Shown piece after piece: positions 46,960-48,845 of a DNA stretch of 64,000 bases. The DNA lies in the NCBI RefSeq assembly GCF_004349315.1, contig NZ_SMLH01000003.1, forward strand, positions 62,001 through 126,000. The letters run 5' to 3'. Below the pieces are notes generated by a model, which was given only the letters and a program-made list of their open reading frames with translations, was not told the origin of the DNA and searched no databases. The stretch's first letter is position 1. Every line of letters begins with the position of its first letter. The translations under genes were made by a program, and so were the position numbers. The DNA is from Flavobacterium ranwuense. GTDB taxonomy: Bacteria > Bacteroidota > Bacteroidia > Flavobacteriales > Flavobacteriaceae.

Positions 46960-47039
46960 AAAAAAGAATCGTTTTCATAATTAGCATTTTAACAATCGAT
47001 TAAACAAATAGTCGATTAATCAAATTAACAATAAAGAAT

Positions 47040-47489
47040 ATGAGTTTATCAGTACAAATCATGGACGATATTAAAACAGCCATGAGAGCCAAAGATACAG
47101 TAGCATTAGAAGCTTTAAGAGCTATTAAATCTGAAATCCTATTAGCGCAAACTGCAACAGGATCAAAAGAAGAAATCTCAGCAGATGATGAAATAAAATT
47201 GTTGCAAAAATTAGTAAAAACACGTAAGGAAAGCGCTAAGATTTTTACAGAGCAAAACCGTTTGGATTTAGCTGAACCAGAATTGGCACAAATCGCAGTA
47301 ATAGAAAAATTCTTGCCGGCACAATTAAGCGAAGCAGAAGTTGAAGTTGTGATTGCAAAAATTATTGCAGAAACAGGTGCGTCAGGAATTGCTTCAATGG
47401 GGAAAGTGATGGGATTAGCGGCAGCACAATTAGGTGGAACTGCCGAAGGAAAAACGATTTCTACTATAGTTAAAAAACTATTGACATAA
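47040..47489 (+). CDS. GatB/YqeY domain-containing protein
   Basis: A 149-residue alpha-helical protein of the YqeY type (DDIKTAMRAKDTVALEALRAI, LLQKLVKTRKESAKIF, LPAQLSEAEVE, GMGKVMGLAA-like segment). The domain is shared with the C-terminus of GatB, where it helps bind tRNA. The free-standing form has no clear assigned function; a tRNA-related role is possible. The gene follows ftsZ across a 340-base gap that holds a terminator and a repeat element. A possible -7 element TAAATTTG overlaps its stop codon. Confidence 0.9.
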   Translation: MSLSVQIMDDIKTAMRAKDTVALEALRAIKSEILLAQTATGSKEEISADDEIKLLQKLVKTRKESAKIFTEQNRLDLAEPELAQIAVIEKFLPAQLSEAEVEVVIAKIIAETGASGIASMGKVMGLAAAQLGGTAEGKTISTIVKKLLT

Positions 47490-47497
47490 ATTTGTAT

Positions 47498-47557
47498 GAT
47501 TTAAGGTTAACGATTTTACACCATAAATCTAAAATCGTTAATCAATAATCTTAAATC
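47498..47557. other. long inverted repeat upstream of the tRNA-Arg locus
   Basis: Nested complementary arms: TTAACGATTTTA at 47507 pairs with TAAAATCGTTAA at 47530, and GATTTAAG at 47498 with CTTAAATC at 47550. No T tract follows, so it may be an attenuator-like or processing structure, or a palindromic repeat, rather than a simple terminator. Confidence 0.5.
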
Positions 47558-47561
47558 AAAT

Positions 47562-47624
47562 GGCTGCGTAGTTCAACTGGATACCTGCCTGCCTGCCTGC
47601 CGGCAGGGAATATCAGATTTCGAC
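47562..47624 (+). pseudogene. 5' half of tRNA-Arg(TCG) with a 24-base insert in the D-arm
   Basis: The bases match the intact tRNA-Arg at 47877 from its first base through anticodon loop base 38 (TTTCGAC), then homology ends. A 24-base CCTG-rich insert (47584-47607) interrupts the D-arm. There is no 3' half, so it cannot fold as a tRNA. It marks the insertion point of the GIY-YIG unit. Confidence 0.88.
47584..47607. repeat. CCTG tandem repeat with palindrome CCTGCCGGCAGG
   Basis: Four CCTG-phase repeats run into a perfect 12-base palindrome. GC content is far above the surroundings. It sits inside the D-arm of the truncated tRNA copy. Confidence 0.8.
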
Positions 47625-47629
47625 AATAA

Positions 47630-47875
47630 ATGGAATATTTTGTATATATTTTAGAGAGTGAGATTGATGGAAGGCTTTATAAAGGTCAGACAAGTGATAT
47701 AGATAAAAGAATAATAGAACATAATTCAGGTAAGACAAAATCTACCAAAGGTTTTAAGCCCTGGAAATTGGTTTATTTAGAAACTTTTGGTACAAGAGAA
47801 GAAGCAGTTCTTCGTGAAAAATATTTTAAAACAGGAAGTGGAAGAGAATTTTTAAAAGAAAAAACAACAAAATAA
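47630..47875 (+). CDS. small GIY-YIG nuclease family protein inserted in tRNA-Arg
   Basis: An 81-residue single-domain GIY-YIG protein. The first motif appears as FVYIL, the second as LYKGQT. A conserved Arg sits in KRIIEHN and the catalytic Glu candidate in GTREEAVLREKY. It is similar to the UPF0213/YhbQ-like family. The gene starts 5 bases after the truncated 5' tRNA copy and ends 1 base before the intact tRNA-Arg, so it has no flanking sequence of its own and no group I intron core. A homing or integrating role is inferred from position. Confidence in the fold is high and in the mobility inference moderate. Confidence 0.9.
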   Translation: MEYFVYILESEIDGRLYKGQTSDIDKRIIEHNSGKTKSTKGFKPWKLVYLETFGTREEAVLREKYFKTGSGREFLKEKTTK

Positions 47876-47876
47876 T

Positions 47877-47950
47877 GGCTGCGTAGTTCAACTGGATAGA
47901 ATATCAGATTTCGACTCTGAGGGTTGCAGGTTCGAACCCTGTCGCGGCCA
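47877..47950 (+). tRNA. tRNA-Arg (anticodon TCG)
   Basis: A 74-base cloverleaf: acceptor GGCTGCG / CGCGGCC with a T-G wobble at position 4, D-stem GTTC/GAAT, anticodon stem TCAGA/TCTGA around loop TTTCGAC, T-arm with GTTCGAACC. CCA is not encoded. Its 5' half is a duplicate of 47562..47624, restored after the GIY-YIG insertion, so the gene is intact. Confidence 0.95.
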
Positions 47951-47961
47951 CAAACACAAAT

Positions 47962-48014
47962 AAAAATGCTTCAAAAAAATCAAGTTTGCTTGAAATTATT
48001 TTGGAGCATTTTTT
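47962..48014 (+). terminator. terminator after tRNA-Arg
   Basis: A long stem AAAATGCTTCAAAA with TTTTGGAGCATTTT and an inner hairpin TCAAG/CTTGA, followed by T-rich sequence. Confidence 0.75.
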
Positions 48015-48035
48015 ATTTTAAAGCGGTTATAAAAT

Positions 48036-48845
48036 ATGTCATTACAACTTTTTATTTCAGTATTGTTTGGAATATTATTTCTTCTAATAATTGTTTTTAG
48101 AGTTCTGGAGCCTGCCTATCTCTTACTATTTAATAAACCATTTTACATCCATTGGTATCCTTTCTCCAAAAAATTAAAATCAAGCCAACGCCAAATTTTA
48201 GTAAACGACTTTCCGTTTTATAGCAGGCTTTCTTCTAAAAGGAAAGCGTATTTTGAACATCGAGTAAGTGAGTTTATTGCTAAATATGAGTTTATAGGCA
48301 AGGAAGTTGTTATTACGGAACAAATGAAAATACTGATTGCGGGAACGTATGTGATGTTGACTTTTGGGATGAGAAATTATCTTGTTCGTTTATTCAATAA
48401 AATAATAATTTATCCTTCCAGTTATTTTTCTACCGTAAATGAAGCGTATCATAAAGGAGAATTTAATCCCAGAATGAAAGCGGTAGTTTTTTCGTGGGAA
48501 GATTTTTTATTGGGACATTTAACATCAAGCGATAATATTAATCTGGGTTTACATGAGTTCTCTCATGTGTTGCATTTTCATTGCTTAAAAAGTAATGATC
48601 CAAGTGCCATTATCTTTTTTGATGAATTCAATGAAGCCGTAAAATATTACAGCGATCCAGTTTTAAATAACGAGTTGACTCAGAAAGATTATTTTAGATT
48701 GTATGCTTATGAAAATCAATTCGAATTTTTATCGGTTATCTTGGAACATTTTTATGAGACACCTCGTGTTTTCAAAAGGGAGCATCCGGAACTATATGCA
48801 CATATTTCAAGAATGATTAATTTTAAAGAAGAATATTTAAAATAA
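48036..48845 (+). CDS. zinc-dependent peptidase, MtfA/M90-like
   Basis: A 269-residue protein with an N-terminal membrane helix (about residues 3-24) and a metallopeptidase domain with HEFSHVLHF, the HExxH motif (about residues 172-176), matching the MtfA (M90) family. In E. coli MtfA modulates glucose PTS control by binding Mlc; that regulator is not expected here, so the target in Bacteroidetes is unknown. The F-Y-rich tail (DYFRLYAYENQFEFLSVILEHFYETP) with an acidic third-ligand candidate is family-typical. Confidence 0.86.
   Translation: MSLQLFISVLFGILFLLIIVFRVLEPAYLLLFNKPFYIHWYPFSKKLKSSQRQILVNDFPFYSRLSSKRKAYFEHRVSEFIAKYEFIGKEVVITEQMKILIAGTYVMLTFGMRNYLVRLFNKIIIYPSSYFSTVNEAYHKGEFNPRMKAVVFSWEDFLLGHLTSSDNINLGLHEFSHVLHFHCLKSNDPSAIIFFDEFNEAVKYYSDPVLNNELTQKDYFRLYAYENQFEFLSVILEHFYETPRVFKREHPELYAHISRMINFKEEYLK

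Follow-up and report, generated by a model that had tools for sequence, protein, structure and literature searches.

We suggest, with a probability of roughly one half, that the tRNA-Arg(TCG) locus of Flavobacterium ranwuense described here is one copy of a widespread family of chromosomal, intron-less, homing-like minimal mobile elements residing at tRNA genes. The unit, of approximately 0.3-0.45 kb, combines a gene for a GIY-YIG nuclease of one domain with a shortened copy of the target tRNA gene, into which palindromic inserts are set, mostly in the D-loop or the T-loop. It is missing at the homologous sites of most close relatives and usually spares one intact tRNA. Selection maintains the ORF, units of like architecture are found at many tRNA types, and near-identical units occur in arrays. 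All coordinates refer to the window, i.e. the whole stretch of 64,000 nucleotides that was analysed (contig NZ_SMLH01000003.1, positions 62,001 to 126,000).

Table. Features of the tRNA-Arg(TCG) locus, in window coordinates.
Feature	Coordinates	Strand	Remarks
YqeY gene, upstream neighbour outside the element	47040..47489	+	PF09424, E 2.6e-41
Broken tRNA-Arg(TCG) copy, positions 1-22	47562..47583	+	100% identity to the intact tRNA
24-nt palindromic insert, (CCTG)3 + CCTGCCGGCAGG	47584..47607	+	D-loop edge of the broken copy
Broken tRNA copy, positions 23-39	47608..47624	+	100% identical to 47899-47915
GIY-YIG nuclease gene, 81 aa, single domain	47630..47875	+	PF01541, E 1.6e-16
Intact tRNA-Arg(TCG)	47877..47951	+	ARAGORN; Rfam RF00005, 63.8 bits

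The first-pass annotation had described bases 47559-47624 as a repeat of the 5' half of the intact tRNA. This is correct for two segments, both 100% identical to their counterparts (47559-47583 to 47874-47898, and the second as given in the Table), but it overlooked the 24-nt insert lying between them, CCTGCCTGCCTGCCTGCCGGCAGG, which accounts for the difference between the 66 nt of the upstream copy and the 42 nt of the matching intact stretch. The duplicate covers tRNA bases 1-39 and three bases upstream. The insert separates position 22 of the 75-nt tRNA from position 23, a point that we take to be A21|22 in standard numbering, so that the acceptor 5' strand, the 5' side of the D-arm and the D-loop (positions 1-22) lie ahead of it. 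The alignment score of the broken copy (68) is far from chance, the maximum obtained when 96 tRNAs were scored against a shuffled 400-nt stretch (15 shuffles) being 30.7. As had been stated, solely the 81-codon GIY-YIG gene lies between the two tRNA sequences, with 5 nt ahead of its start and 1 nt from its stop to the intact tRNA; because the tRNA begins 1 nt past the stop codon, the ORF and the tRNA are probably co-transcribed here, to judge from this spacing. An Rfam search of 47000-48500 (E up to 1) returned the tRNA as the sole match and no intron family, in agreement with the earlier view that an intron core is absent. The genome encodes four GIY-YIG matches, of which the other three are located within frames of 602, 456 and 220 aa. 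With at most one mismatch allowed, the 16-nt core of the palindrome has a single occurrence in the genome of 3,735,422 bases, inside the broken tRNA copy, and the idea that it is a dispersed repeat of its own genome was therefore discarded.

Homologous sites were located via the conserved YqeY gene, which was present in 59 of 61 genus genomes, and the 30 genomes with the closest YqeY were read. The tRNA-Arg(TCG) gene follows YqeY in 29 of them, while the remaining one ends at a contig end. In the comparison with empty tRNA-Arg sites, proposed in the first-pass annotation, 27 of the 30 sites were empty, and three were filled (the present one, L130, which is cut by a contig end, and L131). Presence and absence of the ORF at this site is a difference across species. 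The empty sites, each with a single tRNA-Arg(TCG) after YqeY, contain no relative of the ORF within a locus of about 3.4 kb and no CCTG-type palindromes, and within 400 nt on either side they contain no second tRNA copy (scores of at most 29.0, inside the shuffle range). The best empty match, L118, corresponds closely to both outer flanks of the filled locus: its upstream flank is a near-match to the native flank still attached to the broken copy, and the intact tRNA, which carries the native downstream flank, has the same sequence as the tRNA of L118. As both flanks and the tRNA match, the filled and the empty site differ by one unit and a duplicated part of the tRNA, which upholds the earlier proposal that an insertion duplicated tRNA sequence and left one tRNA intact. 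In the filled locus the broken copy is interrupted by the insert, while the intact tRNA equals that of the empty site; an enzyme that recognised nothing but the tRNA would therefore be expected to cleave the very locus that encodes it. The ORF is patchy in the genus: 8 of 199 genomes have a full-length match with an identity of 60% or more, and one further genome (G142) has a broken copy.

The genomes of the genus (199) and phylum (296) samples were drawn from larger groups. The genus search gave matches at E up to 1e-10 in 84 of the 199 Flavobacterium genomes, from which 30 loci were kept, and the best 80 of 126 relatives were taken from a scan of named genomes. Together they amount to 110 loci, or 106 once the duplicates L035, L036, L038 and L041 were removed; L002 and L034, which resemble one species, were both retained. 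Most relatives have the same three parts: a GIY-YIG ORF of a single domain, an intact tRNA on the strand of this ORF, and a truncated, palindrome-interrupted tRNA copy. In 87 of the 106 loci the ORF has an intact tRNA on its own strand no more than 120 nt away. The tRNA closest to the ORF stands after it in 66 loci and before it in 29, and no tRNA was found in 11, one locus (L094) being counted in the wrong class, as ORF-before-tRNA. L094 belongs to the ORF-after-tRNA class because the second tRNA called by ARAGORN is a palindrome-bearing fragment, and for this reason it was also rejected as an ancestral form with two intact tRNAs. The tRNA types involved are Arg (TCG, CCT, ACG, TCT, CCG), Met, Leu, Pro, Ser, Ala and others, so relatives of the ORF do occur beside other tRNAs with duplicated parts, as the first-pass annotation had suggested looking for.

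A tRNA copy is present on the opposite side of the ORF in 84 of the 94 testable loci, the other 12 being the 11 loci without a tRNA and L017, located at a contig end. Ten loci (L016, L021, L049, L064, L082, L091, L097, L100, L102 and L106) have no clear copy, i.e. none with an alignment score of at least 36. The patterns which would have spoken against insertion, an ORF always lacking the duplicated half or a conserved non-mobile gene, are not those seen. Among the loci without a tRNA, partial copies on both sides were recorded in L004, L005 and L104, and tRNA-like copies in L014, L015, L020 (weakly), L023, L028 and L068. Neither a tRNA nor a copy was found in the stretches read for L010 and L013; the match in the latter, inside a 687-aa frame, is probably another protein. 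In two loci beside tRNA-Arg(TCG), L016 and L043, the ORF is interrupted by a stop codon, and hence decayed units exist.

The copies follow a mirror rule. When located upstream of the ORF, 55 of 61 begin at tRNA position 1 and stop at variable positions, from 22 to 76; when located downstream, 22 of 23 reach to within 2 nt of the tRNA 3' end and begin at variable positions, from 1 to 59. As the copies are anchored at the outer end and variable at the inner one, erosion takes place on the side facing the ORF. The copy of the present locus stops at position 39, the last base of the anticodon loop, exactly as had been noted, but this end is not a general feature of the 61 comparable loci. Because of this variation, the cut in the anticodon arm that had been deduced from it is rejected; the position that does recur is the edge of the D-loop, where 59 of the 88 inserts found across all copies are placed (positions 20-24), with 8 inserts in the T-loop and 21 elsewhere.

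Among the 61 upstream copies, 56 are interrupted by an insert 14 nt or longer, which is located at positions 20-24 in 52 cases. Three of the other five (L019, L047 and L108) have a palindrome directly past the aligned part, L103 lies at a contig edge, and the last is the misassigned L094. Among the downstream copies such inserts are present in 14 of 23, and several of the rest have shorter palindromes, e.g. TCCGCCGCGGCGGA in the tRNA-Met copies. The most frequent insert sequence is CCTGCCTGCCGGCAGGCAGG; unlike palindromes also occur, and some long inserts are low in symmetry. In the 52 loci with a D-loop palindrome, 1116 of 1127 bases on its 5' side match the intact tRNA, while on its 3' side an average of 19.0 nt out of about 53 is retained.

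The exact 20-mer palindrome was found at 43 places in 16 of the 199 genomes of the genus sample, six of them in broken tRNAs beside a family member and 37 outside such copies. Genomes with scattered palindromes have a family match in 7 of 15 cases, compared with the overall rate of 84 in 199. After removal of sites with short flanks and of repeated sites, 36 scattered sites were left for the analysis of flanks. These showed no hairpin preference (mean z -0.38, control -0.61), and the notion that the palindromes target hairpin loops was abandoned, as the flanks were no more structured than the controls. The scattered copies favour A^T flanks (A on the left in 25 of 36, T on the right in 29 of 36), the D-loop site being A^G. 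Scattered 20-nt palindromes (L144, L170, L171, L179 and others) often border another Flavobacterium repeat, with the left flank ...tagccccga or the right flank tcggggcta...

The second sample consisted of 296 Bacteroidota genomes, in which a profile search (E up to 1e-10) detected the family in 179, single genomes having between 0 and 18 matches. For 29 of the 179, the best locus of each was inspected for the tRNA-bound architecture, two of these loci repeating earlier ones. A same-strand tRNA lies within 300 nt in 26 loci and is absent from the stretches read in the other three. A broken copy accompanies 21 of the 26, and 20 of the 21 contain an insert of at least 10 nt; all 10 upstream copies are anchored at the 5' end and 10 of 11 downstream copies at the 3' end. 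Asn, Cys, Val and Pro(CGG) were added to the tRNA types, as was Leu(CAG) in selected stretches. Of 15 stretches selected for several copies, 12 have a same-strand tRNA, and the three without one all come from the same genome (G485). In another genome, G429, the units are arrayed in groups of 3-5 at four tRNAs, namely Ser(TGA), Leu(CAG), Ser(GCT) and Arg(CCT), and adjacent ORFs are 95-100% identical in DNA except for one pair at 75%.

At the tRNA-Arg(CCT) of this genome (L235, G429:C1:1911202-1913529), broken 5' copies with D-loop inserts are located upstream, and downstream there is a broken 3' copy whose insert lies in the T-loop; unlike palindromes surround this one tRNA. L183 (G007:C24:33900-37200), a stretch of 3.3 kb without any tRNA called by ARAGORN, has six ORFs in tandem; the spacers that were read contain a TCCCGCATAGGCGGGA-type palindrome ahead of the T-arm in a tRNA-Pro-like 3' part.

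The 81-aa protein belongs to the GIY-YIG superfamily (PF01541 score of 60.7 bits versus a cut-off of 22.6), and neither a Pfam search nor its AF2 model (pLDDT 90.9) contains any further domain. Eight residues are invariant in 49 sequences (Y6, Y17, R27, H31, N32, P44, E63 and K67), and Y6, Y17, R27, H31, N32 and E63 are presumably the conserved catalytic residues of GIY-YIG enzymes. The nearest fold is UPF0213 BH0048 (E 3.4e-5), followed by Slx1 (2.2e-3), whose entries mention branched DNA, while the I-TevI catalytic domain is a weak match (0.81). By sequence, the nearest solved relatives are BH0048 (PDB 1zg2, 5e-10) and EF2693 (PDB 1ywl, 2.4e-6). A PHROG annotated as homing endonuclease was matched with E 3.6e-6. 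The protein has no match to a defence family, and the possibility that it is a known defence gene was set aside on this basis. A phage or plasmid origin was likewise rejected, as the search for such homologs gave two weak phage matches, two weak plasmid matches and none in viral contigs. Matches outside Bacteroidota are metagenome bins, where contamination is possible.

The protein tree (98 proteins) is poorly resolved, with 5 starred branches out of 93. On this tree the tRNA type requires 24 changes versus 42.8 when shuffled (67 rows; 0 of 500 as low), while phylum, for the same rows, requires 11 versus 13.0 (1 of 500), a weak tracking. For the 37 rows with a known family, tRNA type needs 13 changes versus 21.0 and host family 15 versus 21.1 (0 of 500 in both cases). 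As fewer changes than in the shuffled sets are needed, lineages are linked both to the type of tRNA and to the host family. At tRNA-Arg(TCG), the identities of YqeY and of the ORF diverge in some pairs, being 53 versus 76% between the present locus and L042, and 83 versus 68% between L042 and L048. AU tests on the 228-nt ORF did not reject any of three YqeY clades (p 0.48, 0.42 and 0.12); they used 20 of the 28 YqeY-bearing loci, omitting the duplicates L035, L036, L038, L041 and L034 and the broken-ORF loci L110, L016 and L043. In view of this result the claim of significant horizontal transfer at the YqeY-tRNA-Arg(TCG) site was dropped, and vertical descent with many losses may account for the pattern there. 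The dN/dS values of the ORF, 0.12-0.22 against nine orthologs and 0.07-0.23 over 13 pairs, indicate purifying selection.

The ORF is present at some homologous sites and absent from others and is not surrounded by an intron, as expected of a free-standing homing gene; the intron core that would enclose a group I or group II intron homing endonuclease was not found. We tentatively go one step further, at rather less than even odds, and propose that such one-gene GIY-YIG parasites of bacterial tRNA genes could form a new class of mobile element. In such an element the hairpin-bearing tRNA half, with the hairpin in the D-loop for the 5' type and in the T-loop for the 3' type, would be an obligate functional part that marks the end or the cut site of the unit, which would enter the tRNA genes of any host via the shared tRNA sequence and rebuild a working tRNA. 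In the homing-like reading itself, the enzyme would act in genomes that lack the unit, where it would break the cognate tRNA gene or a single strand of this gene folded into a structure, and repair would copy the unit into the break, the tRNA sequence flanking the ORF on both sides serving as homology arms. Such copying by tRNA homology would resemble intron-less homing, and the duplicated tRNA sequence would keep the host tRNA functional. The palindrome, in turn, might disable the leftover, native-flanked copy as a tRNA, as a recombination partner or as a cleavage site. Besides self-cleavage, the points that speak against the homing-like reading are the AU tests, the tracking of host family and, weakly, of phylum, the members for which the stretches read contain no intact tRNA (11 of 106, 3 of 29 and 3 of the 15 selected), and a protein limited to the GIY-YIG domain, with UPF0213 and Slx1 as its nearest folds and a weak match to I-TevI. 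Given the difficulty of self-cleavage, either the flanks or the structure of the site matter, or the palindrome is the true site.

The last of these options leads to a different explanation, which we consider unlikely though worth weighing, namely that the palindrome and not the tRNA is the site of the enzyme, and that a structure- or hairpin-specific GIY-YIG nuclease, similar to the Ssn nucleases of Neisseria and their repeats of about 20 bp, cuts the hairpin of the broken copy and thereby drives amplification of the unit and its capture at tRNA genes. It would remove the problem of the intact tRNA being cut, and it fits the near-universal insert of the upstream copies, which varies in sequence yet stays palindromic, as well as the resemblance to UPF0213 and then to Slx1 with its branched DNA. 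However, the scattered palindromes of Flavobacterium do not track the family, their flanks show no preference for hairpins, and unlike palindromes are found around a single tRNA in L235. The palindromes could also be unrelated small repeats that land anywhere, are purged from essential tRNAs and are tolerated in the spare copy, the element itself being a GIY-YIG gene that duplicates tRNA ends. The 37 of 43 exact 20-mers outside broken tRNA copies would be accounted for in this way, but we regard this explanation as quite improbable: 59 of 88 inserts fall in a single 5-nt window, and 40 copies of the 16-base core are located within 450 nt of an ORF (117 kb) against one in the other 343 kb of the loci. 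Moreover, the sole copy in the present genome lies in the broken tRNA, and the A^T flanks preferred by the scattered copies differ from the A^G of the D-loop site.

Two further explanations seem very improbable to us, and to a similar degree. One of them places the action of the nuclease at the RNA level, with tRNA as its substrate; the broken half-tRNA with its hairpin would then serve as a decoy, an antitoxin or a controlling leader. The same-strand order and close packing do suggest one transcript, and the broken half is 99% identical to the tRNA up to the hairpin; on the other hand, the broken copy stands before or after the ORF depending on the locus, its RNA fold is no more stable than that of shuffled sequences (z -0.51), a defence family match is absent and the nearest folds do not suggest RNA cleavage. 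The other supposes a non-mobile, old host gene with lineage-specific losses, for which the tRNA repeats merely permit deletion. Such a history would agree with the AU tests, which do not reject vertical descent at the YqeY-tRNA-Arg(TCG) site, with the tracking of host family on the tree and with the low dN/dS. It is, however, at odds with the patchiness within the genus and with the spread from 0 to 18 matches per genome at many tRNA types, and deletion alone does not produce new tRNA duplications at other tRNA types. In addition, L002 and L006 have opposite orders of ORF and tRNA at the same tRNA although their hosts are close (YqeY 95%).

A homing-like element at tRNA genes, the reading which we prefer, has features in common with several known systems. 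The Ssn proteins of Neisseria are site-specific, single-strand GIY-YIG nucleases with repeats of about 20 bp, of which there are reportedly hundreds per genome, and reportedly they form no tRNA-bound unit. The likeness lies in a small GIY-YIG protein linked to a palindromic repeat of about 20 bp, and the difference in the single genomic palindrome found here, within a tRNA copy. The UPF0213 proteins BH0048 and EF2693, which are the nearest solved relatives by sequence (BH0048 also by fold), are entered as hypothetical proteins. Group I introns with homing endonucleases occur in bacterial tRNA genes and likewise bring a nuclease gene to these sites; in the present case, no intron family was found in 47000-48500, and the tRNA is rebuilt by duplication and not by splicing. 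In REP/RAYT systems and Rickettsia palindromic elements, small palindromes are tied to a mobiliser or inserted in genes, which is reminiscent of the present palindromes. Unlike in REP/RAYT, a GIY-YIG protein takes the place of the Y1 transposase and the palindrome core is single-copy here; dispersal of the REP/RAYT kind is not seen, as the genome has one core and the scattered copies in the genus do not follow the family.

The nearest description found in the open PMC literature is that of SegB, one of a group of related free-standing GIY-YIG homing endonucleases of T-even phage genomes, for which tRNA density within 1000 bp was compared (PMC13096335). Both systems combine a free-standing GIY-YIG gene by tRNA genes, tRNA duplication or amplification, and the lack of an intron (PMC13096335). 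In contrast to the phage-borne SegB (PMC13096335), the family described here is chromosomal and directly adjacent to the tRNA, with an 81-aa protein in the present locus. The truncated, palindrome-bearing tRNA copy is a feature of this family that goes unmentioned in the SegB passages of that paper (PMC13096335). No description of a tRNA-adjoining GIY-YIG unit was found in the open PMC literature; the unit is apparently undescribed, although the family may overlap with the Ssn nucleases.

If our reading is true, the units would be among the smallest self-sufficient mobile units known, and they would explain the single-domain GIY-YIG genes and tRNA fragments that are found beside tRNAs. There is also a practical aspect, as hairpin-tagged fragments can be mistaken for genes in tRNA prediction; in L094 (positions 1051-1126), a palindrome-bearing tRNA fragment was called a tRNA-Arg gene by ARAGORN, and such fragments may inflate annotated tRNA counts. 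Finally, the family would lend itself to studying how essential tRNA genes can be the target of a parasite and yet come to no harm.
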